Assembly (NCBI GenBank): GCA_946699065.1 | Contig: CAMPDV010000435.1 | Location: 1 to 64,000 of the forward strand | Direction of reading: 5' to 3' | DNA length: 64,000 nucleotides | Source: Loxodes magnus | Lineage: Eukaryota; Ciliophora; Karyorelictea; Loxodida; Loxodidae | Shown: piece after piece, positions 17,390-60,615 of the stretch | Layout of the letters: every line of letters begins with the position of its first letter | Numbering within the stretch: position 1 is the first letter of the stretch | Notes under the pieces: model-generated | What the model was told of the DNA's origin: nothing | The model's input: only the letters and a program-made list of their open reading frames with translations | Databases searched by the model: none | Program-made: the position numbers and the translations under genes

Positions 17390-17910
17390 ACGACTAATCT
17401 CAAGGTCATTCTTTAATATTTTAGACTTAACTTTGACGGTTCATTCGAGTTACGTTAATTCTGTAGTTTTAACAAGTGACATTAAATCAATTGTCTCAGG
17501 AACTTCCGATGCCACTATAAAGATGTGGGATTTTCAGACTGGAAGTTGTACGAGAACTTTGACTTATCATTCGGATTCAATTATCTCTGTAGCTTTAACA
17601 AGCGACATGAAATAAATTGCCTCCAGAAGTTGAGATAGCACGATAAAGATATGAGATTTTCAGACTGGAAGTTGTACGAGAACTCTGGAAGGTTATTCGA
17701 ATTCAATTTGATCTATAACTTTAAAAGTGATATGAAACGAGTTGTCTCCGGAAGTTGAGATAGCACGATAAAGATGTACCCTCCAAAGAACTTTGACAGG
17801 TCATTCGGATTCAATTATCTCTGTAGCTTTAACAAGCGACATGAAATCAATTGTCTCTGGAAGTTCCGATTGTACGATAAAGATATAGTCTTTCTCAACT
17901 GCTCTAGCTG
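17390..17910 (+). pseudogene. WD40-repeat fragment, four blades, frame-broken
   Basis: Blades read SSYVNSVVLTSDIKSIVSGT followed by SDATIKMWDFQTGSCTRTL; SDSIISVALTSDMKQIASRS followed by WDSTIKIWDFQTG; a third blade after a one-base loss; and a fourth after a deletion of about 20 bases that removes part of the blade. Two SGSWD/SRSWD motifs and one IWDF motif use TGA where the family has Trp. The blades are unusually alike, as in recently amplified WD40 repeats. The fourth blade is followed by uncertain hydrophobic sequence to about 18.17 kb. Confidence 0.75.
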
Positions 17911-21105: not shown

Positions 21106-21107
21106 TT

Positions 21108-22000
21108 TCAGACTTGTTTTAAGATCATAGAGCACTGTTGAAAAGTCTAATTTTAAAAAGAAAGAAAAATCTATAACGCTTTTACTCCATAATTTATGAA
21201 TTCAAAAGGATTATCTCCAGTGACCATTCCTCTTCTTACAAAAATATCAATATCAGGAATACATTTTACTACATCAGAGTCTTTTCGTAATGCCAAAGGT
21301 CTCAATATTTTTCCTGATACACTGCCATTAGGAGATCTTTACTATCTAGTAGGGCTCTTCAGAACTTTTAATTTAATTCAAGGATTATTCATAATATTTA
21401 ACCAGTTCAATTAACCTTCATGTGTTACTAAGTAATATATTACACTACTTTTAGACAACTTAAAATTTTAATTATGTAAATTCTACTCTCTTGCATCTTT
21501 TTCTAAGTTAAAATCGAATATCACAGAAGTAAGTAATAATTTGAATGCTACTTATAATACTAAATTTAAAAGGGAAGTTTTATCTGCTAAGTATAGGGAA
21601 GCTAGTATTTAATAATCTGATGAGAACGTTTCTAAAGATAAATAAATTAACGTGATTCTACCTTTATTAGGTTCACTACGATTAATAAAAAAACCAAATT
21701 TTGATTTTAAAATAGTCTAGAAATATTTCTGGCTTCGTCTGTTCTCTTTGGTCACTTTTTTCTCAGTTTTTAAATAAAAATTTATTATCTTTACTCTCAA
21801 AATTATTTTATTTCTTTCCGAAGGCTAAAGTTAAAAGGGAATAGAATAAAATCCAATTCTTGGGCCAAATTTCACAATCGAATTTATCTTTCTACTTAAA
21901 GATATAATTTGTCTCAGTCATGTCTTCAGGTTTTTCCAATTCCTAACCAGATTAACGACATAGAGGCAGGATTACTCTGAGACCTTAACTTAAGCACCCT
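21108..22000 (-). pseudogene. Unidentified gene X, copy 1
   Basis: Minus-strand paralog of 33052-33960. Shared peptides include PNKGRIT, YLSLETFSSDYQILASLYLA, DKTSLLNL, PNGSVSGKILRPLALRKD and PDIDIFVRRGMVTGDNPFEF, ending KQV before TGA at 21108-21110. Relative to copy 2, a one-base difference near 21.89 kb shifts the frame and the N-terminal part is disrupted. One Trp (NNPW) is encoded by TGA in both copies. No family was recognised. The 3' end abuts the kinesin remnant, which is not part of the duplication. Confidence 0.55.
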
Positions 22001-22009
22001 AGTTATATT

Positions 22010-22680
22010 CTGGTACCGATTGAGAGAACCCTCAAATAAGTAAGGCTTATCACACAAGTGTACGTTGTTATTTATTATTATTTATTTATTATGATTGAAC
22101 TTTTATCAAAAGTATAGGGGTTATAATGGCCTGATTTGATATATGTGTATAGGAAAGTTTAGTAGTTGGTATTAAAGTATGTATTTTAGAGTGTATGATA
22201 GTAATAATGACTTGTATTTAGATATAGGTTAATGATAATTTGATTATAGTTTTGATTAGATAAATAGTAATCTGTACTTGTATAATTTAAATATAAGGAT
22301 ATATTAAAGATAGTTTTTTGACATTGTTGAATATGTTTTGGTATGTTATAAGCTGTATGTTAGTATCTGAATAATGATAATATTTGAATAATAGATTTTT
22401 AAAGATGTTTAGATAAAATTTGATTCTTTATTTATTTCAGCTTTAAAAAGAGCTAGTAAGGAAAATAATCTTTATTGTCAACTATATAGCTATAACTACA
22501 TTACCATATCAACATCATATATACACTTAAACATACAAAAAAACTTATAAAAATACAACATTAATAAGTATAGATTAACCATATTAATAAGTAGTAACAT
22601 ATTTACTATAGATATTTAAACTACTTACATATAAAACTATATTTATTATCAATAATATTAATCATATCAATATTATTATT
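22010..22680. other. Strand-asymmetric spacer downstream of RING-Kelch
   Basis: The plus strand is G-rich and C-poor from about 22.12 to 22.44 kb, then C-rich and G-poor to about 22.68 kb. Sequence from 22.12 kb onward is essentially identical in copy 2 (33.98-34.54 kb). No gene is apparent. Confidence 0.55.
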
Positions 22681-22683
22681 ATC

Positions 22684-24129
22684 TCAGTTATCCCCTTTAA
22701 CACTTCTATAACTCAACTTTTCTAAATCAATCCTCATTATTGAAGCTCTTTCCTATTCAGAAGCAAAAACATATCCATAGACACCTCTTATTTTCATCTC
22801 TGTTAAAGCAAAGACATCTTTAAAAATTTAACTTTATTGCCATTATTATTTGTTTCTTTTATATATTCTTCTTGAATATTCTTCTGTAGAACAATTTTTT
22901 CAACCTCCGATTACGACAAAAGGTTCTAAAGAAACTATAGGACAGGCAACAGCTTCAGGAAGATTCAAATTTTACTTACTCCATCTATCATTCTATATGT
23001 TATACTTTCATATATCTTTTAAAGTTTATACTTTCTAATTTACACCTCCAAAAGAATAAATATTTTATTCATCTTTATCTACTACTAAAGTTTAGCCTAA
23101 TATTAAGAATGGAAATTAAGAGCATTTTTATCATTTACTTTAGTTTCCTATCTTTAACTTTTCTACTGATTATAACATTTTATTGGTACTAGTAAATCCT
23201 CCAACCACATAAAGATAATTTTAAGCTGCTGCTAATCCAAAATAATATCTTCCCTCATTTAGATCACTAAGTTTTGTATTATTACCTTCGAAATCGAACT
23301 ATCAAGTTTCTTTTATTCCTTTATTTTAATTTTAGTTATATCCTCCAATTAAATATAACTTATTTTAATATTCTATACTTTAACTTAATTTTGGAATTAT
23401 AATTTAAACTTAGACTTATCGTAATTACTCAGTTTAAATATTAAATAAACTTAATTTTTAAATATAGTAATTAAAAAAGTGAATATAGTTAGATTGAATA
23501 AACTGTTGCTACTAGGTTAGTTTATGTTAATTAGTCTGTTTAGTGTTTAACTGTTGTTACTTAGTATTGTATTATAGTTAGTTTCTTATTTGTGTGATAT
23601 AATTTGAAGTTAATTTAGGGTTTAGTACTAAAGGTGGTTATATAGTGGAATATAGTTAGACTGTTATAGTTTGGATTTGAGTTGGTTTTAGAAATGAGTA
23701 AATAGGGAATTAGGATGATTGTATAATATTTTAGTGTTATTAGTTGTAGTTAATGGTAGTGTATTGGATGATATTAGTATATGGTATAATGAGAGTATTA
23801 GTAATGTTAGATAATTTGGTTGTAATGGTTTTAGATTTTTGCATAATTTACTTCCTTATCTCTTTTAATTTCTATCTAGCATCTTAAATCTTTTATATGT
23901 ATTATTAGTTTTAAAATATCATTCTTATTAAATCACTTTCTTAAGGTAAGTCTTCAAATCTAAAATGGAATCCTTTTTAACAAATAGGACATTACATTAT
24001 GCCTTATAATCAGAACTGAGTATTCAAACACAAACCACAGTAAATATGTCCACAAGGTAAGACAGTTGGAAGAGCATTAGTTAAGTTGTAATCTTCTTAG
24101 CAGATTAAGCATTTTGGTAACGCTTACAT
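22684..24129 (-). CDS. RING finger-Kelch repeat protein, copy 1 (probable E3 ubiquitin ligase)
   Basis: ATG at 24129 to TGA at 22684-22686 gives 481 residues in one frame. A C3HC4 RING lies at residues 7-50: C7, C10, C26, H28, C31, C34, C47 and C50 (CLIC, CGHIYC, CPIC). A Gln/Asn/Thr-rich linker follows to about residue 255, then Kelch blades with GG pairs and Trp: LIGGYNQNQN, VVGGFTSTNK, FGGVNQ, DIWKYNIQNDRWSK and VIGGW. Five Trp are encoded by TGA, including the Trp between the last two RING ligand pairs (residue 40) and the GGW of a blade (residue 410); two use TGG. RING domains recruit E2 enzymes and Kelch propellers bind substrates, so a ubiquitin-ligase role is likely by family. Confidence 0.88.
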
Positions 24130-24179
24130 TTTTATTATTATTTAGATTAAAAAAGCTTATAAAGGTAATTTATAACAGT

Positions 24180-24690
24180 TACCATCAAAAATTATAATTA
24201 ACCATTATAAATTCAAATATCTATCATTACATACATACTACAATATTAACCTCTTATATCAAGTACCTATCTACAATCCGCACCAATACATTTTGCTAAA
24301 TTTAAAAAACCAGCCAGCTTTACAACTTAATCACATTTTTTATTATATAAATAACAAAAACATCTCTATCCTAAAATCTTTAAAAACTACTACGAGCAAT
24401 GCACTAAAAAAGGGACACAATCTTTAACTAATCTTAATATCAAAAAAAGTAGCTAAGTTAGAACATTTACTAAGACTAAAGCTCTTTGAAAATCTTTAGA
24501 ATGTAGGAAGAAAAGAATGAGAAATAAATAGACGATAATACGAAGCTCGGAACTGCTAAAAGAGAAAAATTTATAAATTTAAATTATTTTTAGAAAATAA
24601 GAACTACAACCAAAGACTCATTCCAACAGAAATGAAAACAAATGAAATTATTTTGCATTTCTCAGAGATCTTAAGTAAGAATATGGTAAA
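24180..24690. other. Upstream region of RING-Kelch copy 1
   Basis: C-rich, G-poor plus-strand DNA to about 24.4 kb, nearly identical to the same region of copy 2, followed by a transition into the tandem array. It should hold the RING-Kelch promoter, but I recognise no specific element. Confidence 0.4.
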
Positions 24691-24699
24691 AGGAATGAG

Positions 24700-26600
24700 C
24701 GTGTGAAAATCCTTTGATAGGGCAGAATGGAGTTTTTATTAAAAGTTCTACTTACAATCTTCTAGGAACTTATTCTTTATCATAATGAGACTCCTTTTGA
24801 GAACTAGACAAAAGCTCTCAAGCAGAAATTTCTTTAACTAAATGTTCAACCTTAAAATCTTACGCTTTTAAAATTTATTACTAATAACTTAAGAACTGGA
24901 TATAAATATGAAACAGAATGGAGTATTTAGTCAAAGTTCTTCTTTCAATTTTTAAGTTTTCAACTATATCCCGACAAAAATATTTAGAACTAAACACTAG
25001 CTCTCAAGTGAAACGGACTCTATAAAATAAGTTGTATTTTCATCGTTTAAATACTTACTCTTATTCGTAACTCAGACGTATTTTGAGAAAAAGAACAGAG
25101 CAATCTAGAAAATGGATTCCAAACTTAAACTCTTCATAACATATTAAAGTTCTTAAGCTTATCGTCTATCTTGACATTTTTTGAAAACTTGATCAGAGCT
25201 CGCAAGGATAACGGATTCAAAACTTAAAGTTCATCTTACAGTGTTTTAGATTTCAGCACTTTCGATAATCAGATTATGCTTTAGAAAATAGTCGAGCTCT
25301 AAAGGATACGGATTCCATACTTGAAGTTCTTCTTAAAGTCTTACAGTTCATAAAAATTAACTCTACAGAGATTTTTTTCGAGATTTTGATTAGAGCTCTC
25401 ATGGATAACGGATTCCGAACTTAAAGTTCTTCTTACAGTTATTTTGTATTTTCCGCGATTTCGATATTCAGATATAACTATAGAAAGAAATCCGAGCACG
25501 AAAGATAACGGAATGCAAACTTTAAGTTCTTCTTACAGTCTTTTTTTCTTACGATTTATAACTTACCTGTCTCTTTTTTGAAAACTTGATTAGAGCTATA
25601 AAGGATTAACGGATTCCAATTTAAAGTTTTCTTTGGTCTTTTAGTATTTCAGCTCCTTCGTTTCTTAGTTCAAAATTGGAAAAACTGGATCAGGACACTC
25701 ATGTATAACGGATTCCAAACTTAAAGTTCATATTATAAACTTTTAGTATTTTCACTTTCGATATTGAGATTAAGGATTAGAAAGAGATCCGAGCTCGCAA
25801 TTTTAACGGATTGCAAACTTAAAGTTCTTCTTACAGTTTTTTAATATTTCAGCAATATGTTTGTCAGATTTTTTAGAACTAGTGCCGAACGCACGAATAT
25901 CTGTGTCTTAACTCAAAGATTTATTTCAGTACTTTAACTTAATTAGCTTTTTCGATACTTTTAATTTTTTGCAACTAGTTCAGATCTCTAAAATATATCG
26001 GATTCTTCGCTTAAAGTCCGTTTTTTAGTTTTTAATTTCTTAAGTTTTACCTCTATCATACTCTTTTTATAATTAGATCAGAGCTATTAAGTATTTCTGT
26101 TTCTATTCACAAAAATCTTGATTCAGTTTTTTAAGATTTTCAGCTTTAACGTAACTCTGAATTGCTTTATAAACTATTTCAGAGCTCAAAAAATATCGGA
26201 ATCTTCTCTCAGATTTTCTATTTCCGTAGTTTAACTTCATCATCTTTTCAATATTCAGACAAATTTTAAGAACTAGATAAGAGCTCTAATGTATGTCTGA
26301 GTCTTTACTTAAAGTCTGCAGTTTTAATAGTTGGCTTGCAATATGTTAATCAGACTTATTTTGAGAACTAGATTAGAGTTCTTAAGACGAACGGAGTCTT
26401 AACTATAAGTTCTTATTTCAGTCTTTTTACTTCTTCAGCTTTTTGATACTTAGACTTCATTTGAGAACTAGATCAGAGATCTCAAGTATTTCGTAGTCAT
26501 AACTCAACTTCTATTTCAGATTTTTCAGCTTTATTAATACTTAGACTTTTTTTGAGAGCTAGTTCATAGATCTCACGCTGAACGGAATTTTGCTCTAAAG
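24700..26600. repeat. Tandem array of about 99-bp units, copy 1
   Basis: Degenerate units repeat roughly every 98-102 bases. Recurring words on the plus strand are CTTAAAGTTCTTCTTACAGT, CAGCTTTTCGATACTCAGA, GAACT(A/T)GATCAGAGCTCT and GATAACGGATTCC, in that order. I estimate about 19 units. Units near 26.6 kb are more diverged than central ones, as expected for unequal exchange. On the minus strand the units read as Lys/Glu-rich peptide such as EYRKAEELKDCKKNF. The unit is not a multiple of three, so the frame rotates from unit to unit; coding use is doubtful except where it adjoins the TRIM-like coil. Confidence 0.85.
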
Positions 26601-27740
26601 TTCTAGTTTCTGCTCTTTTCTAAAGTATTTCTACTAGAAGTTATTTTGTTTCAAGATAGTATTTTACTGCTAGAGCATTCTCTCTCGTTATATCTCTTGA
26701 TCCTCTATTTCTTGCTAGTTATGAGATATTTGTTCTCTTAAGCCATTCAACACCAAATCCTACTCTTTAATAACTTAAAGTAACTTTTAGATTTATTCTT
26801 TACTTTCCTTATTAACACTCTCATAATATTAAGCCTACAACTAACTCTCCTTTCATAAAAGTTATATAGTTCTTTAAAAGGATTATATCTATACTCTCTA
26901 TCTAGCATGCAATTCCTATTCTAAACCAAACTAACTCCCTTTCATCATCTTTTAAAAAACTTAAGCTTCCATATTCTAAGGTATAAGAATAGCTTAATAT
27001 TAAGAATATTTTTATTCTTCATTTATTTGATTTTCTTAAAGCTATACTTCCAATCTCTCTAATTAATTCTTCTTTATCTCACATTACTATATAGTGGTCT
27101 ATTACATTTATCCGATACTCTCTACTTACTTACTCATCTCAAAAATATTATTTTAACTTATTTCCTACCTACTCTATTCGCCTTTCTCCTATACTCTTAT
27201 CACCAACTCCTCACATGCTTACTCTAAACTTCTCTTGATATTATCATAGATCTATACTATATATTTTATATTTATCATATAATCTTAAGCCAACTACATT
27301 TATCATTAGCCTAAGACAGAAGAATATTGATTCAACCTCTCTTTCATAGCACTCAAAGTCATTTACATTCGAACTTACATAATAGGAACGATTTCCTCTT
27401 ATCTACCACATTGATGCTTCTTATGAGAATTCCATTGGCATTTTTCACATATTAATATACTGTCACTCAGACAATAAAAAGCTAGAATCTCATTATGCTC
27501 TTAACATATATTCAGTAAGTTTTATTTTGACTCCTCTTAAAGATGTGAAACCTCCATTTCTAATTTTTCAATTGGTCTATAAGTGATGATGTTGTGCTTT
27601 TTACAATTAAACATCTATTAGATTTTGTAGAAGCTTTTCAAACATCTCTCACAAAGAATACATCCACAATCCAACTTTCTAGGCTTTCTAAACTCTTAGT
27701 TGAAGTCTTTTTCGCAAGCTTCGCATTTAGATGGTAGCAT
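26600..27740 (-). CDS. TRIM-like protein: RING, B-box, long coiled coil
   Basis: ATG at 27740. A RING occupies residues 6-49 (C6, C9, C25, C27, C30, C33, C46, H49; a variant with Cys at the usual His position). A B-box follows at 79-109 with textbook spacing: C79-x2-H82-x7-C90-x7-C98-x2-C101-x4-H106-x2-H109 (ICEKCQWNSHKKHQC). A long Gln/Glu/Lys-rich coiled coil runs from about residue 120. In-frame TGA occurs at 27303-27305 (read as Trp) and at 26853-26855, which would give 295 residues if a stop; coil-like sequence continues past it to the edge of the tandem array near 26.6 kb. RING/B-box/coil proteins are typically ubiquitin ligases. The 3' end is uncertain. Confidence 0.82.
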
Positions 27741-27759
27741 TTTATTTTTGAATAGACTA

Positions 27760-33000: not shown

Positions 33001-33051
33001 ATTCCTATTCGAGTTTTTTTATGTTTTTAATAAGTTGATAAATCAGTTGTT

Positions 33052-33960
33052 TCAGACTTATTTTAAGATCATAGAGAACTGTTGAAAAATCTAATTTTAA
33101 ACAAAAGGACAAATCTATAACGCTTTTACTCAAAAATTTATGAATTCAAAAGGATTATCTCCAGTGATCACTCCTCTTCTTACAAAAATATCAATATCAG
33201 GAATACATTTTACTACATCAAAGCCTTTTCGTAATGCCAAAGGTCTCAATATTTTTCCTGATACACTGCCATTAGGAGATCTTTACTCTCTAGTAGGGCT
33301 CTTAAGAACTTTTAATTTAATTCAAGGATTATTCATAATATTTAGCTGGTTCAATTAACCTTCATGTGCTACTAAGTAATATATTACACTACTTTTAGAC
33401 AACTTAAAATTTTAATTATGTAAATTCTACTCTCTTGCATCTTTTTCTAAGTTAAAATCGAATATCACAGAAGTAAATATTAATTTGAATGCTACCTAGA
33501 AGACTAAATTTAAAAGGGAAGTTTTATCTGCTAAGTATAAGGAAGCTAGGATTTAATAATCTGATGAGAACGTTTCTAAAGATAAATAAATAAACGTGAT
33601 TCTACCTTTATTAGGATCACCACAATTAATAAAAAAATCAGATTTTGTTGTTAAAATAGTTTAGAAATTCTTCTGACTTCGTCTGATCTCTTTGGTCACT
33701 TTTTTCTTAGTTTTTTAAATAAAAATTGATTTACTTTACTCTCAAAATTATTGTATTTCTTTCCGAAGGCTAAAGTTAAAAGGGAATAGAATAAAATCCA
33801 ATTCTTGTGCCAAATTTCACAATCGAATTTAATTTTTCTACTTAAAGATATAATTTGTCTCAGTCATGTCTTCAGGTTTTTCCAATTCCTAACCAGATAA
33901 ACGACATAGAGGCAGGATTACTCTGAGACTTGGACTTCAGTACCCTAGTTAGATTCTGGT
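33052..33960 (-). CDS. Unidentified gene X, copy 2
   Basis: The minus strand reads a coherent frame: FNFSLRKEIQQFWEQSKSIF, GDPNKGRITFIYLSLETFSS, LASLYLADKTSLLNLVFQVA, DFNLEKDAREQNLHNQNFKL, SVIYYLVAHEGQLNQLNIMN, PNGSVSGKILRPLALRKGFD and PDIDIFVRRGVITGDNPFEF, ending KQV at TGA 33052-33054. Compared with copy 1, substitutions include synonymous ones and the frame is kept through most of the protein. In-frame TGA is Trp in NNPW and FWEQ. The N-terminus is not clear. I do not recognise the family. Confidence 0.6.
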
Positions 33961-34538
33961 ACCGATCGAGAGAACCCTCAATGGCCTGATTTGATATATG
34001 TGTATAGGAAAGTTTAGTAGTTGGTATTAAAGTATGTATTTTAGAGTGTATGATAGTAATAATGACTTGTATTTAGATATAGGTTAATGATAATTTGATT
34101 ATAGTTTTGATTAGATAAATAGTAATCTGTACTTGTATAATTTAAATATAAGGATATATTAAAGATAGTTTTTTGACATTGTTGAATATGTTTTGGTATG
34201 TTATAAGCTGTATGTTAGTATCTGAATAATGATAATATTTGAATAATAGATTTTTAAAGATGTTTAGATAAAATTTGATTCTTTATTTATTTCAGCTTTA
34301 AAAAGAGCTAGTAAGGAAAATAATCTTTATTGTCAACTATATAGCTATAACTACATTACCATATCAACATCATATATACACTTAAACATACAAAAAAACT
34401 TATAAAAATACAACATTAATAAGTATAGATTAACCATATTAATAAGTAGTAACATATTTACTATAGATATTTAAACTACTTACATATAAAACTATATTTA
34501 TTATCAATAATATTAATCATATCAATATTATTATTATC

Positions 34539-35984
34539 TCAGTTATCCCCTTTAACACTTCTATAACTCAACTTTTCTAAATCAATCCTCATTATTGAAA
34601 ATCTTTCCTATTCTATAGCAAAAATATATCCATAGATACCTCTTATTTTCATCTCCGTTAAAGCAAAGACATCTTTAAAAATTTAACTTTATTGCCATTA
34701 TTATTTGTTTCTTTTATATATTCTTCTTGAATATTCGTTCGTAAATGGATTTTTTCAACCTCCGATTACGACAAAAGGTTCTAAAGAAACTATAGGAAAA
34801 GCAACAGCTTCAGGAAGATTCAAATTTTACTTACTCCATCTATCATTCTATATGTTATACTTTCATATATCTTTTAAAGTTTATCCTTTCTAATTTAAAC
34901 CTCCAATTGAATAAATATTTTATTCATCTTTATCTACTACTAAAGTTTAGCCTAATATTTAAAATGGAAATTAAGAGCATTTTTATCATTTACTTTAGTT
35001 TCCTATCTTTAACTTTTCTACTAATTATAACTTTTGATAATTATTAATAATTCCTCCAACCACATAAAGATAATTTTAAGCTACTGCTAATCCAAATTAA
35101 TATCTTCCCTCATTTAGATCACTAAGTTTTGTATTATTACCTTCGAAATCGAACTATCAAGTTTCTTTTATTCCTTTCTTTTAATTTTAGTTATATCCTC
35201 CAATTAAATATAACTTATTTTAATATTCTATACTTTAACTAGATTTTGGAATTATAATTTAAACTTAGACTTATCGTAATTACTCAGTTTAAATGTTAAA
35301 TAAACTTAATTTTTAAATATAGTAATTAAAAAAGTGAATATAGTTAGATTGAATAAACTGTTGCTACTAGGTTAGTTTATGTTAATTAGTCTGTTTAGTG
35401 TTTAACTGTTGTTACTTAGTATTGTATTATAGTTAGTTTCTTATTTGTGTGATATAATTTGAAGTTAATTTAGGGTTTAGTACTAAAGGTGGTTATATAG
35501 TGGAATATAGTTAGACTGTTATAGTTTGGATTTGAGTTGGTTTTAGAAATGAGTAAATAGGGAATTAGGATGATTGTATAATATTTTAGTGTTATTAGTT
35601 GTAGTTAATGGTAGTGTATTGGATGATATTAGTATATGGTATAATGAGAGTATTAGTAATGTTAGATAATTTGGTTGTAATGGTTTTAGATTTTTGCATA
35701 ATTTACTTCCTTATCTCTTTTAATTTCTATCTAGCATCTTAAATCTTTTATATGTATTATTAGTTTTAAAATATCATTCTTATTAAATCACTTTCTTAAG
35801 GTAAGTCTTCAAATCTAAAATGGAATCCTTTTTAACAAATAGGACATTACATTATGCCTTATAATCAGAACTGAGTATTCAAACACAAACCACAGTAAAT
35901 ATGTCCACAAGGTAAGACAGTTGGAAGAGCATTAGTTAAGTTGTAATCTTCTTAGCAGATTAAGCATTTTGGTAACGCTTACAT
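34539..35984 (-). CDS. RING finger-Kelch repeat protein, copy 2
   Basis: ATG at 35984 to TGA at 34539-34541, 481 residues, the same length as copy 1. The RING ligands, linker and Kelch GG/Trp positions are preserved, including the TGA-coded Trp residues. The few differences cluster in the last blade and tail: CSTEEYS in copy 1 is PFTNEYS here, GVYGYVF is GIYGYIF, and ACA to ACG is silent. Both copies look functional. The preserved length and near-identity over coding and noncoding DNA point to recent duplication or gene conversion. Confidence 0.87.
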
Positions 35985-36549
35985 TTTTATTATTATTTAG
36001 ATTAAAAAAGCTTATAAAGGTAATTTATAACAGTTACCATCAAAAATTATAATTAACCATTATAAATTCAAATATCTATCATTACATACATACTACAATA
36101 TTAACCTCTTATATCAAGTACCTATCTACAATCCGCACCAATACATTTTGCTAAATTTAAAAAACCAACCAGCTTTACAACTTAATCACATTTTTTATTC
36201 TATAAATAACAAAAACATCTCTATCCTAAAATCTTTAAAAACTACTACGAGCAATGCACTAAAAAAGGGACACAATCTTTAACTAATCTTAATATCAAAA
36301 AAAGTAGCTAAGTTAGAACATTTACTAAGACTAAAGCTCTTTTAAAATCTTTAGAATGTAGGAAGAAAAGAATGAGAAATAAATAGACGAGAATGAGAAG
36401 CTCGGAACTGCTAAAAGAGAAAAATTTAACGATTTAAATTTTTTGAAGAAAAGAACTACAACCAAAGACTCATTCCAGCAGAAATGTAAACAAATGAAAT
36501 TATTTTGCATTTCTCAGAAATCTTAAGTAAGAATATGGTAAAAGGAGTG

Positions 36550-39115
36550 AGAGTGTGAAAATCCTTAGAAAAGGCACAATGGAGTTTTTATTCAAAGTTC
36601 TACTCAAAATCTTCTAGGAACTTCAGCTTTATCATAATGAGACTCCTTTTTAGAACTAGAAAAAAGCTCTCAAGCAGAAATTTCTTTAACTAAATGTTCA
36701 ACCTTAAAATCTTCCACTTTTAAAATTTATTACTAATAATTTAAGAACTGGATGTAAATATGAAACAGAATGGAGTTTTTAGCAAAGTTCTTCTTTCAAT
36801 TTTTAAGTTTTTCAACTATATCCCGATAAAAATTTTTAGAACTAAACCAAAGATCTCAAATGAAACGGAGTCTATAAAATAAGTTGTACTTTTCATTCTT
36901 TAAGTATTTACGCTTATTCGTAACTCAGACGTATTTTGAAAAAGAACAGAGCAATCTAGAAAATGGATTTCAAACTTAAATTCTTCTTAAAGTATCGAAG
37001 TTCTTAAGCTTATCATCTATCCAGACACTTTTTGAAAACTTGATCAGAGCTATCAATGATTTACGAATTTCAAAACTTAAAGTTCATCTTACAGTTTTTT
37101 AGATTTCAGAACTTTCGATAATAAGATTATGCTTTAGAAAAAAATCGAGCTCTAAAGGATAACGAATTCCATACTTAAAGTTCTTCTTAAAGTCTTAAAG
37201 TTCATAAGCATTAACTCTAGACAGACTTTTTTTGAGATTTTGATTAGAGCTCTGAAGGATAACTGATTCCGAACTTAAAGTTCTTCTTACAGTCTTTTAG
37301 TACTTAGCGTTTTCGATACTCAGTTCAATCTTGGAGAACTTAATCAGAAGCTTTCAAGGATTAACGACCTCCAAACTTAAAGTTTCTCTTATAGATTTTT
37401 AGTATTTCAGCACTTTGCATATTGAGATTAAATTTAAGGAAAAGATTTGAGCTCGCAAGGATAACGGTTTGCAGTCTTAAAGTTCTTATTACAGTCTTTT
37501 AGTTCTTAAGCTTTAAATTTTTTTAATCTCTTTTTGGAAAACTTGATTAGAGCTTCATACGCCTAACGGATTCCAAATTTATCAGTTTTTTAATATTTTA
37601 GCACATTCAATTCTCAGTTCAAATTAGGAGAAATTGATCAGAGCTTTCAAGGATTAACGGCCTCCAAACTTAAAGTTAATCTTACAGTCTTATAGTTCTT
37701 GAGCTTTAGATCAGCAAACTTTTTTGGATAAACTGATCAGAGCATTTAACGATTAACTGAATTCAAACTTAAAGTTTCTCTTACAGATTTTAAATATTTC
37801 AGCATTTCGATTCTAAGTTCAATGGCAGGATTTAAACAAATCAAAAGGAAAGCGGATTTCTAACTTAAAGTTAATCTTACAGTCTTTTTGAATTTCCGTG
37901 CTTTCGATATTCAGATATAACTATAGAAAGAAATCCGAGCACGTAAAGATAAAGGATTGCCACTTAAAGCTCTTCTTACAATTTTATAGTTCTTAAGTTT
38001 TATATCTTACCTGTTTCTTTTCGAGAACTTGATCAGAACTATCAAGGATTAAAGGATTCCAAATTTAAAGTTTCTCTTACAGTTTTTTTTGTATTTCAGC
38101 ACTTTCATTTCTCAGTTTAATTTTTAGAACTTGATTAGAGCTATCAAGGATAACGTATTGCAATCTTAAAGATTTTCTTACAGTTCTTTAGCTTAATCTC
38201 TACCCAGATTTTTTTGAGAGCAGTATAAGAGTTCATAAGGATTAACGGATTCCAAACTTAAAATTCTTCTTTAATCTTTTAGTGTTTCAGCTCTTTCGAT
38301 ATTCAGATTGATTATTATTAAATATTACAGCTCTCAAGGATAACGGATTCGAATCTTATAGTTCTTCTTACAGTCTTGAAGTTCATATGCTTTAACTCTA
38401 CACAGACTTTTTTTGAGATTTTGATTAGAGCTCTCAAGGAAAACCGATTCCAAACTTAAAATTCTTCTTTCAGTCTTTTAGTATTTCAGCAATATATTTG
38501 TCAGATTTATTTAAATTTAATGCCGAACACACGAATAACTGAGTCTTAACTCAAAGTTTTATTTCAGTACTTTAACATCATTAGCTTTTTCGATACTTTT
38601 AATTTTTGGAACTAGTTCAGATCTCTAAAATATATCGGATTCTTTGCTTAAATCCGTTTTTAGTTTTTAATTTCTTAAGTTTTACCTCTATCATACTCTT
38701 TTTATAATTAGATCAGAGCTACCAAATATTTCTTTTTCTATTCACAAAAATCTTGATTCAATTTTTTAAGATTTTCAGCTTTAACGTAACTCTGAATTGC
38801 TTTATAAACTATTTCAGAACTCAAAAAATCGGAGTCTTCTCTCAGATTTTCTATTTCTGTAGTTTAACTTCATCATCTTTTCGATACTCAGACTAATTTT
38901 AAGAACTAGATAAGAGCTCTAATGTATGTCTGAATCTTTACTTAAAGTCTGCAGTTTTAATAATTGGTCAGCAATATGTTAATCAGACTTATTTTCATAC
39001 TGTGAAAGGTTCTAAAGAGAATTGGAGTCTTCGCTCGTAGTTTTTATATCAGTATTTTAACTTCATCAGCTTTTCGATACTCAGACTTATTTAGAGAACT
39101 ATGTTGAAAGATAAA
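36550..39115. repeat. Tandem array of about 99-bp units, copy 2
   Basis: Same unit as at 24.7-26.6 kb. Successive ACTTAAAG words lie at about 37075, 37173, 37273 and 37375, giving spacings of 98, 100 and 102 bases. I estimate about 25 units, more than copy 1. Both arrays lie upstream of a RING-Kelch gene. The right edge meets the LINE ORF2 3' end. Confidence 0.85.
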
Positions 39116-39131: not shown

Positions 39132-42100
39132 TCAAGCTTCTTCTTGTTCTTTCTCTATCATATATTTTTATTTATTGTCTTGATGAATATTGTCTTTTTT
39201 TCCTTCTAGAAACTCTTCTAAAAGCTCATCTTGTAGTTCAAACATTTCAATACGCTTTTTTAGTAATTTAGAATGAAAATTTTTGATTAATTTGTCTATT
39301 TTAGGAATTTGATTCTTTTAAAAATGTTTGTTTATATAGTTTTAGTCATAAAGAATTCGTTTCTTCTTGTCTTTTTCTTTAAAAGCTTTATGACTTTCAA
39401 GTTCCTCAATAATGTCTGCATAGTATTAGCAATCAAAAATATTATCAGCTTCATCAAAGTCTTAGCCACATAAGCAAATAATGCTATATCTAACGTTAAT
39501 GTGGCGATTATTAAGTTCTTATTGAAAATTATAAGAAAAAGTCCTAAGTTTATAAATAGAAATAGTCTCTCTAATATAGTGCTTATTATATTTGGTATAA
39601 ATAATTTCAGGAAATACACTTTAATTATTTTCTATTTAGTCTATAATTCTTTTTGCTGTTGGCATAAGTATATTCCTTGTGAGACATTCCATTAAGAATT
39701 TATGTTTTATTATTTATTCTGTGAGCTTATAAAAATCCATATTACTCTAAACATGTGAAATGTCAAAATTATACAAATCGATACATTTCTTTATATGTTT
39801 CTAGTATGGTAAATTAAATTTAGTGCATTTTTCTAATAGAAAAGCAGTATCTTAGTTAGGACTTTCTTTGCTATATTACATTAATTTTTAATAATAGTGC
39901 ATTAAATTTTAGTTGCTATATGTGTAAAAAGAAGCCAGTTTGTTTAGGTCAATAAAGCATGACTCTTTGAATGTGAATTCTTAAGATCTAAACGCCTATC
40001 TTGAAATAAGCCTTTACGATTTTGCTATCTTGCTTTTTATTCCTTTAATTCCAGAAATAGTAGCTCACGGAGTAATATCACTTCCATATTCAACTTTAGG
40101 CAAAATAAAAGTTCTACAAAGAGTTTTGAAGCTGAGAGGCTATAATAATCCATATTTAGAAAGTATTGCAGTAGCTTTTTAAATAGCTACTCTGTATTTG
40201 GTAGCTACTGCTGTACAATGTAATTTGTAATTTTATTTTATTCCTAACTAATATCCTAAATAGGTAACTTCATCTTTTTAAGCAATTGGAATCCCATTGA
40301 GCTTTATATTAATAGAAGGTTAGATTTCTTTTCATTTATTTTTTTAAAGATTTCTATTACTTCACATTTATCTACATTAATTGTAAGTTTTACTCAATCA
40401 AAAACTGTAGATGTAGCTTGTAATAATTTTTAGGCATTTTTCTAGGAAGAAGACAATTGGATTAAGTCGTCAGCGAAGGCTCGTACTACGAAAGTTTTAG
40501 ATAATATTGTAAATCCTAATTTCTTATGATTATCTTCTAAATATCTTATAACAATATCATAGTATAAAATTGCAAGTACAGGTACATGGCTACTTCCTTA
40601 TAATACTCCATTGTTATATTTAATTGTTCTTGTAAGATACCCATCAATTATAAACTTAGCATCAACATTATCGTAAAAAGATTCTAGTGCCAATATTAGG
40701 TCCAAAGGTAGCCTAAGTCTTCTAAGATGATCAAAAAGTAATTTCCTAGATATGCTATCAAACATTTTTTCTACATCTATTAAAGTAGCAATTAATTACT
40801 TTTTATGGGACCATCTACAATACAAGTCTATAATTTACTAAATAGTTCAAATTTGCTAAGTAGTGGAGCGTTTACGAATAAATCCAAATTAGGCTGGATG
40901 TAAAATGTTCCGTTCTTAAATATAATTATAAAGTAGTTATGTTAGTGCTTTATCATAAATTTTAAGTAGACAGTTCAATAAAGCTATAGGTCGTCAATTA
41001 CATCAATTACTTTTGCTTCCTTTTTTGAAAATCGGAAGAATGTTTATTTTTTCATTTCATTAGGTATTTTAAATGTTCTAAGCATGTTATTAATGAAACT
41101 TGTAATAATTTGATGCAAATCTTAACCTCCATATTTAATAAGTTCAGCTTTTAGACCATCATTACCTGTAGCTTTATTATTTGCAAGCTAAGATATAATT
41201 TTTTTAATTTCAAATCACGTAAAAAGAGGCATATTTTATAAATGACTTAATTTCTAATTTAAGATAAAAGATTTATTTCTAAATATTCCCTCTATTTTTA
41301 TGTTTGAGAAGTCAAATTCTATCTTACTTATTTTCTTATTTTCGAATGTTTATCAAAAACGTTAGTTTCCCAATTTTCAATAAATTGCTATTGTTAGTTA
41401 AAGTTAAAATTCATCTAATTACGAATTTTAGGGTTTATTAGATTTTAGCTTGTTTAAACATTATTTAAGCATTTTTGTTAAGATCTTTATGTTTTTCCTT
41501 AGCTTTTAATTTTTTTAATTTCCAAAATTTGTGAAGATAACTCTTATAAGATTAAATTTTAAGCTAGTAAAGTTTGGTAACTTCTTAATTATGACGTCCA
41601 TACAAAGTTAATGCGTTCTAATATGCAATATTATCCTTTTTTGCTTGAACAAATAACGTAGCTAAGTAACTTGGCAATTGATAATAGTTTTTGCTTTGAT
41701 TTTAAGTTCCAAGTGCAATCTCAGCATTATAACTTTTAAGATCGTAGATGAATTAGCAGTAATTTTCAACATGGTTTTAATAAAGTTACTAGAATTGATA
41801 AAATTATCCCAAAAATAGATTTTAATAATAGTTTCTCGTTTCCAAATCCTATAGTTTAGAAATTTTAAAGAGTAATCGTTATTGTTAATCTTATTCACTT
41901 CTTTTTAAATTATAATTTAATGTAATACTTAATGGAAAATTATCAGTATGCAAACCCTTGGATAACTTTATAGTCAAAGCAGCAGAATTTAAATGTGAAG
42001 TTGCCAAGAAGTAGTAATTACAATAGCATTAATTATTGGCTCTATGAATAAATGTGTTGGACTCATTATCATTTAAAATTAATAATTAATTTGCTTCTAT

Positions 42101-42831
42101 AAAGTCTAGTAATCTTTAAGTATTATTATTGATTTGTGATGAATTGTTACCGTAGTTAGGAATTAAGGCATTAAAGTTGCCACAAAGGATAGTATTATTT
42201 ATGATATTATTAAGGTATTCATATGCAATGTCCTTATAAATATTTGATTTTTCGTTTGTAGGCAAATAACATGATGTTATTATTAAATTCCAACTCTCAC
42301 GCTTATAAAATGTCCAGGAAGATTTGAGAAATCTAATTCATTTTAACAAGAATCAAGTTACTTTTTTACTAATAGACATACTCCACCTGGACGTTTATTT
42401 GCGTTTTATTAATAGGTACGATATTGTTCTATAACAATTGGGCAATATGTTTATTACGTTCATTTTTCGTTTATTGAAAAAATGTCAAATTCATTATCAA
42501 GGATAAATTATTATAATGCGGTTTGTTTACTAGCTATTGAACTTATATTTACATGTCCTATTTTTATTTTCTTAGATTCTTGCGCTCCACCAGGGAGCTC
42601 TCCCTAATATATGCAAATATATTTAGTCCCTTATGAATCTCTTTAAATATGTGCCAGTTCTTTTTTATACTCAGGGTACTGGTGGAAATATTAGATCAAA
42701 ATGTAAATTACTTAAATCGAATAAGATTCTAGTAGTTTATTGTCTATTTTAATAACATTTTAGGTACTATCTATAGTGCCTTGAGTTAATTCTTTATTAA
42801 TTGTTATATACTTTCCTTGAACATTGCTCAT
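39132..42831 (-). CDS. LINE ORF2: endonuclease-reverse transcriptase
   Basis: ATG at 42831, TGA at 39132-39134, about 1,230 codons. Endonuclease: GHVNISSIASKQ, INEKW (catalytic Glu plus Trp from TGA at 42460-42462), RPGGVCLLVKK, CGNFNALIPNYGNN and HTDNFPLSI. Reverse transcriptase: NKATGNDGLKAELIKYGG, NWRPIALLNCLLKIYDKALT (Trp from TGA at 40994-40996), QFGFIRKRSTTQQ, LIDVEKMFDSI, GVLQGSSHVPVLAILY, FADD at 40466-40477, and VFDWVKLTINVDKCE (TGA at 40394-40396). A degraded C-terminal Cys motif reads CLCGQDFDEADNIFDC, its His replaced. Single-base shifts occur near 42.3 kb and 40.3 kb. Gln in QFGF and GVLQG is TAA. Confidence 0.9.
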
Positions 42832-59277: not shown

Positions 59278-59402
59278 AAAATTATATCAGTATTAAACAT
59301 TTTTATCAGTACTGAATAATTATACCAGTATTGAACAAGGTTTATCAGTATCTAATAATTTTATCAGTAACAAACATTCTTGTCAGTATGAAACATTTTT
59401 TT
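59278..59402. repeat. Minisatellite, about six 20-bp units
   Basis: Successive units such as ATCAGTATTAAACATTTTT, ATCAGTACTGAATAATTAT, ACCAGTATTGAACAAGGTTT and GTCAGTATGAAACATTTTT repeat every 19-21 bases. It directly follows the hairpin pair and precedes the 3' side of the ARF-like gene. Confidence 0.8.
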
Positions 59403-59572
59403 TAAAGAGCTGCGCACCAAAGAGAGTGCTAAGCGCTCTATAATCAAATTTATTTATTTATTTATAACATTTTATAATAGTATTAAAAGTATTAAAAGTA
59501 TGTTAAATTAGAGAGTGAGAAGAGGTAAAAAATAATTTTTAACTTAAAATGAATTAGCTTAATTTTTTAAAT

Positions 59573-60166
59573 TTACTTCTGTTTTTCATTTAGTCTTTTT
59601 TCCAACCAATCAAGTCCTTCATAAAGGCCAAATCCATTAATAGCACATGTAGGTTGAACGTACCCTTTTCTTTCTTTCAATTAATTTAATTGTAACACAT
59701 CAATTAATTATTCTACTCCCATAGCATTCGGTAAATCTTCTTTATTTGCAAATATTAAAATACAGGCTTTTCTCAATCCATCTTCTTATAATATTCTTAT
59801 TAATTCTTCCTTGACATCATCCATTCTTTCTTTTTCATTGGTAGCTACTACAAATATTAATCCATCCATGATATCAATATGGTTTTTCCATGGAGGCCAT
59901 ATTTTATCCGATCCACCTACATTCCATGATTAAAATAAAAAATTCTTATATTCTACTGTCTCCACATTATATCTCATTTAATAAGATACTTTAATCGCTT
60001 CGCCAAGTACAAACTGTTCCTAAATTTTCTGATTTCCAGCAGCTTCATCTATCTTCAGCTTATATAATATCGTAGTCTTACCAGCTGCGTCTAAACCTAC
60101 CATCAAAATTTTGTACTTTATTCCTCCAAATATTTTTTACTTTAAACTTCCTAAACTTAAACCCAT
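59573..60166 (-). CDS. ARF-family small GTPase, divergent
   Basis: ATG at 60166; 197 residues to TAA at 59573-59575. MGLSLGS carries the Gly2 used for myristoylation in ARFs. The P-loop GLDAAGKT is at residues 24-31, NVETVEYKN at 67-75, [10 protein letters not shown] at 81-90, ANKED at 140-144, and [11 protein letters not shown] near the end. Oddities: the switch I PTIGF motif is replaced by YQMRY after an insertion of about 16 residues; DVGGQ is NVGGS, losing the catalytic Gln. Such changes would alter nucleotide cycling. The family ends about where TAA occurs, and the sister gene at 63783 ends with TGA at the same position; reading TAA as Gln would add about 43 residues to TGA at 59444-59446. 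Confidence 0.88.
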
Positions 60167-60179
60167 TATAGCTTTTTTC

Positions 60180-60615
60180 TAATTTTCAACTCATATACAT
60201 ATTTTTACCTTAAGGGTCTTTTTAATAACTTTTCTAGACCTTTTTATTATATTTTTAGTTAATATCTCTAAATTAAGTAAAGTTACTTCAATCTGACGTA
60301 ATTCTTCGTCAATTATTTATTTAATTGATTTGATTTAAAAAGAAATACTACTACCCATAGAAAATATATAGATGCTATAAGTATTATATTATAATAGATT
60401 GCTGAAAAATATACTGCTATTTGGAATAAAGTTACTTATATGCCTAAAGGCTTAAATATTGTTCTGAAATAAGTACTTCTGATGGGAATGATAAATGATA
60501 GCTATCATATTTTTATGAGTAAATTGGTTCTAAAATAAAATAAATAGCAAATATCTATATTTTTAAGCATAGTTTATAGTTATTACTTTTTTCGAGATTC
60601 CTCTCATTATATTTT
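60180..60615. other. Spacer upstream of the ARF-like gene
   Basis: A+T-rich DNA between the ARF-like start and the minus-strand gene fragment. It should contain the ARF-like promoter; no specific element was recognised. Confidence 0.4.

Follow-up and report, generated by a model that had tools for sequence, protein, structure and literature searches.

The stretch analysed here, called the window throughout, comprises positions 1 to 64,000 of contig C435 from the nuclear DNA of the karyorelict ciliate Loxodes magnus; genome searches covered the assembly of 705,730,643 bases in 7,843 contigs. The window holds two copies of a gene that joins a RING finger to a Kelch propeller, the RING-Kelch gene, each within a larger repeat unit, together with frames resembling long interspersed nuclear elements (LINEs), WD40, ARF and TRIM proteins (Table 1). 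The original prediction, made from the letters of the window, had drawn on the first copy to propose a genetic code in which TGA means tryptophan (Trp) or stop and TAA and TAG mean glutamine (Gln). The frame of this gene runs on the minus strand, which corrects that account, and the account missed that the gene belongs to a hypervariable multicopy family.

Copy 1 has in-frame TGA codons at residues 40, 276, 333, 374, 410 and 482, along with 45 TAA, 7 TAG and TGG at 383 and 430. Every one of the six frames across 22684-24129 contains 37-58 stop-type codons, so an open frame on its own is no evidence here, and we dropped it as such. What rises above chance is that both RING and Kelch matches exceed their Pfam cut-offs and that the frame is conserved in all 98 copies read. 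The zinc ligands of a C3HC4 RING are present (C7, C10, C26, H28, C31, C34, C47 and C50), as in RING-type E3 ubiquitin ligases, and the protein is predicted to transfer ubiquitin. Four Kelch blades carry a GG motif and one carries FA; the blade number of the propeller is presumed from this sequence repeat. A BTB domain was not found among the 22 Pfam families matching the copy 1 protein at E up to 1.

A large family whose sampled copies remain in frame

A protein search of the assembly, started from the window copy, gave 87 scored places out of 3,414 candidates, and each of the 87 aligned along the full 490 of 490 residues. Since this search missed the second copy in the window, 87 is a minimum. 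With up to three mismatches allowed, a 42-base RING core matched at 1,134 places (621 + 513) against 0 in the control, and the 100 places listed match exactly; part of this number may reflect the counting of both haplotypes, which weighs against a repertoire of the size proposed below. Two subfamilies, A and B, were represented by 430 and 613 exact 37-mer matches, respectively. Contig C435 carries 10 A copies, all on a single strand, and contig C132 at least 33 RING-core places at spacings of 6.9-8.2 kb and longer.

The frame was intact across the alignment in 87 of 87 copies; in four of them the length departs from that of the rest by 3 or 6 bases. Copy 2 of the window and ten further copies from five contigs were also in frame, giving 98 of 98. 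In a genome without ordinary stops, frameshift is the main route to gene loss, and the intact frames therefore indicate constraint.

Literature searches found no description of a RING-Kelch family of this kind, and the main text of the Loxodes genome paper (PMC11441545) does not contain kelch, RING, ubiquitin or gene family. One scan of viral contigs found no viral relatives of the gene. As far as we found, the family is new.

A constant RING half and hypervariable Kelch blades

Nucleotide diversity was calculated in 50-nt bins over 21 copies with longer flanks, and the proportions of nonsynonymous and synonymous differences (pN and pS) over 81 distinct sequences. Two constant segments enclose the Kelch part (Table 1). 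Bins between 23750 and 24300, in the 5′ segment, had diversities of 0 to 0.0065, those of the Kelch part 0.002-0.104, and the homologous flanks, out to 21200 and 25400, 0.03-0.16 (10-21 copies aligned). The borders of the constant segments, near 22125 and 24480, are fairly sharp and lie within flanks diverged by 3-16%. The RING half is all but identical even at synonymous sites while the flanks diverge by several per cent: codons 1-100 gave pS 0.0004 and pN 0.0002, and codons 216-482 pS 0.056 and pN 0.057. Between subfamilies, pS rose from 0.02 in the RING to 0.14 in the Kelch part, hypervariable sites excluded, and 0.27 in the linker.

Hypervariable sites were defined separately in each subfamily, in A by at least four residues each present in at least two copies (21 sites) and in B by four or more residues across the nine copies (17 sites). 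Thirteen sites were common to both among 266 Kelch columns (hypergeometric P 1.1e-13). The 87 copies encode 80 distinct proteins, with 76 combinations at 13 hypervariable residues. When sites defined in B were examined in A copies, pN was 0.40 and pS 0.23. By comparison, pN was 0.026 and pS 0.042 at the 241 Kelch codons that were not hypervariable in A or in B.

Amino-acid diversity along the Kelch part recurred with a period near 48 residues. Its autocorrelation was 0.209 at lag 49 and similar at lags 95-98, as high as the 0.21 at the trivial lag of 3, and the permutation P for lags 44-52 was 0.0035. With offsets counted from the last G of GG (or from FA in the last blade), diversity at +1 was 0.59-0.76 in all five blades, and at +2 it averaged 0.03. 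Variation also fell at -16/-15 and at +4 to +7, though not in all blades, and in two separate blades at -18/-17 and at -13, respectively.

These offsets can be set beside Keap1 and the KLHL proteins, which likewise have Kelch blades with GG. In Keap1, S508, Y525 and Q530 lie at -16, +1 and +6 and coincide with the RING-Kelch variable offsets -16/-15, +1 and +6/+7. S508, Y525, Q530, R415, S555, Y572 and S602 are contact residues of Keap1 in published docking tables (PMC12029559). The RING-Kelch protein differs in having no BTB domain, in carrying a RING within the same chain and in existing as about a thousand copies that vary at those very positions. A constant effector part with hypervariable sites is the pattern of diversified receptors, and by analogy with Keap1 the variable sites may be where binding occurs.

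Selection, drift and targeted diversification

Alternatively, the copies could be carried along by a selfish repeat, tandem or mobile, or could be decaying paralogues, and the Kelch differences would then be neutral drift. High copy number in arrays, LINEs and degenerate repeats close by, pN/pS near 1 across the whole Kelch part and the lack of a terminal TGA in one (L110) of the 12 copies aligned would fit this. We nevertheless consider this explanation improbable, because length changes were seen solely as multiples of three in copies that were all in frame, variable positions recur in two subfamilies, and +1 varies in every blade next to a nearly invariant +2.

A targeted diversity-generating process, either hypermutation or short-tract copying from donor cassettes, might instead randomise the hypervariable codons and leave selection merely to filter the outcome. 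At these codons all three bases vary (mean base diversity 0.44, 0.50 and 0.26 at positions 1-3), although the third less than the first and second, and pS is raised (0.229). Linkage between Kelch sites in 81 copies fell to r2 0.03 at 11-50 nt and 0.02 beyond, and constant segments flank the Kelch part on both sides, as such a process might leave them. However, linkage in the flanks, measured in 20 copies, was also low (r2 0.09-0.16, compared with 0.07-0.09 for the Kelch part beyond 10 nt), so exchange appears to be general, and Kelch-specific shuffling was rejected as the source of the low linkage. The signature of diversity-generating retroelements was not found: at position 1 of codon 413, multi-allelic with T in 57 copies, C in 26 and G in 4, A is absent, unlike in adenine-directed retroelement mutagenesis (neither a donor nor a template repeat was sought). 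We therefore hold a targeted process to be unlikely, if less so than drift.

Several points weigh against diversification of the family by selection. pN/pS is close to 1 over the Kelch part as a whole, and the raised pS at hypervariable codons leaves room for local hypermutation. The stretch of some 550 bases that follows the gene is constant although largely non-coding, and protein-level selection does not explain it. The general low linkage means that shuffling is no special property of the Kelch part. Because 87 copies were picked by score and ten by an exact RING core, truncated copies may be under-represented among those found in frame. A two-sequence AlphaFold model was unusable (mean predicted local distance difference test score, pLDDT, 31.1), so the argument for one binding face rests on sequence offsets.

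Codon exchange among gene copies

The copies of the RING-Kelch gene inside the same genome offer a test of the code that needs no outside profiles, since UGA is found at diversifying sites as one of several alleles and its reading as Trp can be checked internally. TGA and TGG exchange at columns 374, 383 and 430 in the 87 copies, and at 276, 374, 383 and 430 in the two-subfamily alignment. Column 383 has 86 TGG and 1 TGA (2 TGA and 7 TGG among nine copies of subfamily B), and column 430 has 78 TGG and 9 TGA (7 TGA and 2 TGG in B). The original prediction had placed five internal TGAs at Trp positions of the two domains. This holds for residues 40, 276, 333 and 374, where all 12 aligned copies have TGA or TGG, and fails for residue 410, a hypervariable position (W 27, I 24, L 22, V 8, R 2, F 2 and G 2). 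The sixth TGA, taken there as the end of the protein, probably is its stop.

All 12 sequences have Gln in 38 columns when TAA and TAG are so read, and 11 of these 38 swap TAA, TAG, CAA or CAG; codon 2, for example, is TAA in 11 sequences and CAA in one. In total, the 41,847 codons of the 87 copies include 409 TGA, 177 TGG, 3,798 TAA, 635 TAG, 917 CAA and 321 CAG. Within this one gene family, TGA was absent from codons 431-481, and TAA and TAG from codons 462-481.

In the published account, karyorelicts including Loxodes use NCBI table 27, with UGA as the only stop and also as Trp; UGA and UAA as sense codons become scarce over about 20 codons ahead of the stop, and the 3′ untranslated region averages 53 bp (PMC11441545). 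The RING-Kelch gene agrees with table 27 in reading TAR as Gln and UGA as both Trp and stop, and in lacking UGA and UAA right before the stop. It differs in one copy, L110, with TAA at the place of the stop.

TGA ends 97 of the 98 copies read. In L110 (G000:C35:151423-152932), which is one codon shorter and in frame, TAA replaces the terminal TGA, and no in-frame TGA occurs in the sequence examined beyond; this is either a stop loss or termination at TAA. Termination there would suit a code of the Condylostoma type, in which any of the three codons can either encode an amino acid or end translation. That code is highly improbable for this genome, given the TGA at the end of all other copies read, the abundance of TAA and TAG inside them, and UGA as the sole stop in the published Loxodes code (PMC11441545).

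Three columns count against TGA as Trp. TGA occurs at 254, 295 and 428 in 1, 1 and 3 copies, and the remaining copies there mostly have codons for Tyr (254 and 295) or for Gln or Glu (428). Taken together, internal exchanges and the published Loxodes code bear out the original proposal of TGA as Trp or stop and TAA and TAG as Gln, with no dedicated stop, as well as its placing of the source among karyorelicts or their relatives. The codon usage that it reported is the already known karyorelict code and nothing new.

Outside profiles and structures

Pfam scans of the window copy were run under ten readings of TGA (nine residues and X). Trp ranked first in 8 of 11 families. PDB comparisons were made with X at TGA, TAA and TAG, tabulating the facing residue in one chain per family and counting a gap as a miss. 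The LINE frame matched PDB 8c8j (E 2.6e-13) and human LINE-1 ORF2 chains (about 4.5e-13), the Kelch part matched Kelch chains, the ARF frame matched ARF1, and the WD40 match was weak. The motifs cited in the original prediction carry the codons claimed: TGA in INEKW, NWRPI, FDWVKL, SGSWD and IWDF, and TAA in QFGF and GVLQG (Table 1). TAA faced Gln at 3 of 7 places in the LINE chain, including QFGF and GVLQG. A Trp of the Kelch chain sits opposite residue 334, the neighbour of TGA 333.

Much of this comparison speaks against the proposed code. Three of the 11 Pfam families favoured a reading other than Trp: NANM, zf-RING_2 and, by the widest margin, PF24681 (C 83.0, L 78.3, X 77.2 and W 59.6 bits). 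TGA stood opposite K, F, R and V in the LINE chain (Trp 0 of 4), opposite E, T, E and E in the Kelch chain (Trp 0 of 4) and, for SGSWD, opposite Asp in the best WD40 chain (PDB Tako8, a weak match). TAA never faced Gln in the ARF chain (8 places) or the Kelch chain (14 places), and neither did TAG at any of its 7 places, one a gap (LINE 3, ARF 1 and Kelch 3). Tabulating stop-type codons against relatives, as had been suggested, thus succeeded within the RING-Kelch family and not in distant PDB chains, where TGA faced Trp at 0 of 8 places. Such mixed residues in single distant chains neither prove nor refute Trp, and our reading of the code therefore relies on the internal exchanges and the published code.

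tRNAs and eRF1

Changes in the decoding machinery had also been proposed as a check. A pattern resembling tRNA-Gln, allowing anticodon UUA or CUA, matched at 301 places against 2 in the control, and the anticodon was UUA in all 100 matches listed, as expected of suppressor-type tRNAs. Two of the UUA-anticodon genes were called tRNA-Stop(tta) by ARAGORN. These tRNAs presumably carry Gln, judging by their likeness to eukaryotic tRNA-Gln. TAA and TAG are read as Gln, with UAA probably decoded by the tRNA with anticodon UUA. The UUA-anticodon genes form tandem arrays, with one gene about every 275 bp.

For TGA, a tRNA-Trp pattern matched at 130 places against 0 in the control; among the 100 matches listed, all had anticodon CCA and none UCA. 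A first, stricter pattern had yielded only two genes with a 5-bp anticodon stem, and the looser pattern revealed arrays. The anticodon stem was read to position 43 in 4 of the 130 matches. Two of these genes, L113 and L114, come from different arrays and are mismatched at 27-43 (A.C and T.C, respectively), which leaves a 4-bp anticodon stem, whereas the isolated genes L029 and L030 have five pairs. A candidate for the predicted tRNA reading TGA is thus the tRNA-Trp(CCA) with a shortened stem in two array genes, and no UCA tRNA occurs among the matches listed. A tRNA-Trp with a 4-bp anticodon stem has been reported from Loxodes before (PMC13092985).

Tandem tRNA arrays lie on contigs C67, C148, C214, C103 and C158 of the assembly, and those of tRNA-Trp have one gene about every 187 or 241 bp. 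Regularly spaced RF00005 matches lie on C103 and C158, and a separate single match on C103 is a tRNA-Lys. The RF00005 search scored 63 of 42,786 candidates and is not taken as a tRNA census.

The eRF1 changes looked for are present. Matches to PF03463 number three, two of them eRF1 genes (L032 and L033) and the third a candidate Pelota, so named by eye (L031). In both eRF1 genes, RAQNIKS replaces TASNIKS, Ala replaces Ser70 and Phe replaces the Tyr of YxCxxxF, as read from an alignment of L032 with PDB 4crn and from the translation alone of L033. The two genes, nearly identical and both with Ser70 changed to Ala, lie about 35 kb apart on contig C196.

In Blastocrithidia, Ser70Gly in eRF1 has been linked to UGA read-through (PMC12153298). 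Loxodes resembles it in that both array genes examined have an anticodon stem with its top pair broken, and in a change of eRF1 at Ser70. It differs in the residue at Ser70, Gly there and Ala here, and in the mismatch, which is A27.C43 or T27.C43 in Loxodes; moreover, in Blastocrithidia UAR is Glu and UAA is a stop. A model from Condylostoma and Parduczia, in which translation of such codons is the default and transcript ends impose termination, has been described (PMC4967479).

Other features of the window

A TRIM-like frame, recognised by eye, with RING and B-box-like cysteines lies at about 26470-27749 on the minus strand, just upstream of repeat unit 1; the equivalent place in unit 2 is occupied by the end of a LINE. 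An ARF-like gene at 59400-60310 on the minus strand (ARF1 match) has a stretch that interrupts the region after the P-loop, and its first in-frame TGA comes about 40 codons past the conserved end; the gene may thus contain an intron, carry an extension or be a pseudogene. The sequence AAATAAATTTGATTATAGAGCGC... is shared between the junction beside two RING-Kelch copies (L026 and L028) and the region after the ARF-like gene (about 59400-59450), and resembles a short interspersed repeat.

Table 1. Features of the window, with positions counted from its first nucleotide
Feature	Positions	Strand	Remarks
RING-Kelch gene, copy 1	22684..24129	minus	482 codons: 481 aa + TGA; start ATG at 24129; terminal TGA 22684-22686
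RING finger, residues 6-52	23974..24114	minus	zf-RING_UBOX 37.2 bits (cut-off 25.2); hardly any variation among the 87 copies
TGA as Trp40, in the RING	24010..24012	minus	TGA in 87/87 copies
TGA as Trp276	23302..23304	minus	86 TGA, 1 TAA of 87; subfamily B 6 TGA, 3 TGG of 9
TGA as Trp333	23131..23133	minus	TGA in 87/87 copies
TGA as Trp374	23008..23010	minus	86 TGA, 1 TGG of 87; subfamily B 8 TGA, 1 TGG of 9
TGA at residue 410, hypervariable position following GG of a Kelch blade	22900..22902	minus	TGA in 27/87 copies
Terminal TGA (stop)	22684..22686	minus	TGA in 87/87 copies; 11/12 in the two-subfamily alignment (L110: TAA)
Kelch propeller, residues 216-481	22687..23484	minus	Kelch_4 56.2, Kelch_1 54.0, Kelch_6 49.0 bits; hypervariable among copies
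Constant 5′ segment (upstream region, RING, coil)	23700..24480	minus	diversity 0 to 0.015, 21 copies; edges approximate
Constant 3′ segment, mostly non-coding	22150..22700	minus	diversity 0.0000 in ten bins 22650-22200, 0.007 in end bins
RING-Kelch gene, copy 2	34539..35984	minus	
Repeat unit 1: gene and homologous flanks, degenerate ~100-bp repeats upstream	21106..26470	minus	extent approximate
Repeat unit 2	33050..39101	minus	extent approximate
TGA as W of INEKW, LINE endonuclease-like frame	42460..42462	minus	
TGA as W of NWRPI, LINE reverse transcriptase frame	40994..40996	minus	opposite F in PDB 8c8j
TAA as Q of QFGF, LINE reverse transcriptase frame	40889..40891	minus	opposite Q in PDB 8c8j
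TAA as Q of GVLQG, LINE reverse transcriptase frame	40598..40600	minus	opposite Q in PDB 8c8j
TGA as W of FDWVKL, LINE reverse transcriptase frame	40394..40396	minus	opposite V in PDB 8c8j
TGA as W of IWDF, WD40-like	17652..17654	plus	
TGA as W of SGSWD, WD40-like	17756..17758	plus	opposite D in PDB Tako8

A candidate recognition repertoire

We consider it probable, with good confidence, that the window combines the known Loxodes code with a new, thousand-copy RING-Kelch recognition repertoire diversified by selection. Copy number, the pattern of variability and conservation of the frame are direct observations on the copies, and the variability pattern is well supported; from it we infer a function in recognition. 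The RING would recruit a ubiquitin-conjugating enzyme (E2) and the Kelch face would bind a target. Selection may favour new specificities and so diversify the target-binding surface, and exchange among array copies could both homogenise the constant parts and shuffle the variants. The most likely role would be the recognition of variable non-self or intragenomic targets.

Large repertoires of ubiquitin ligases, such as plant F-box-Kelch, nematode F-box/MATH and TRIM proteins, join a constant ubiquitin-ligase part to a diversified target-binding part. The RING-Kelch family differs from them in that its constant half is nearly identical in DNA and only a few residues in each blade vary most strongly.

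More tentatively, and at somewhat less than even odds, the roughly thousand germline-encoded RING-Kelch ligases might form an immune-like system for combinatorial recognition of non-self or of self-compatibility. One or a few residues of each blade would be drawn almost independently from small sets, gene conversion would keep the effector half and the outer segments identical, and UGA would itself serve as a diversifying codon.

If the proposal of a selected recognition repertoire is true, a ciliate would possess such a repertoire on the scale of large immune or antigen families, and the diversification of recognition in a single cell, together with its targets, would become directly testable. 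The karyorelict code explains how ordinary open reading frame finding hides families of this kind.

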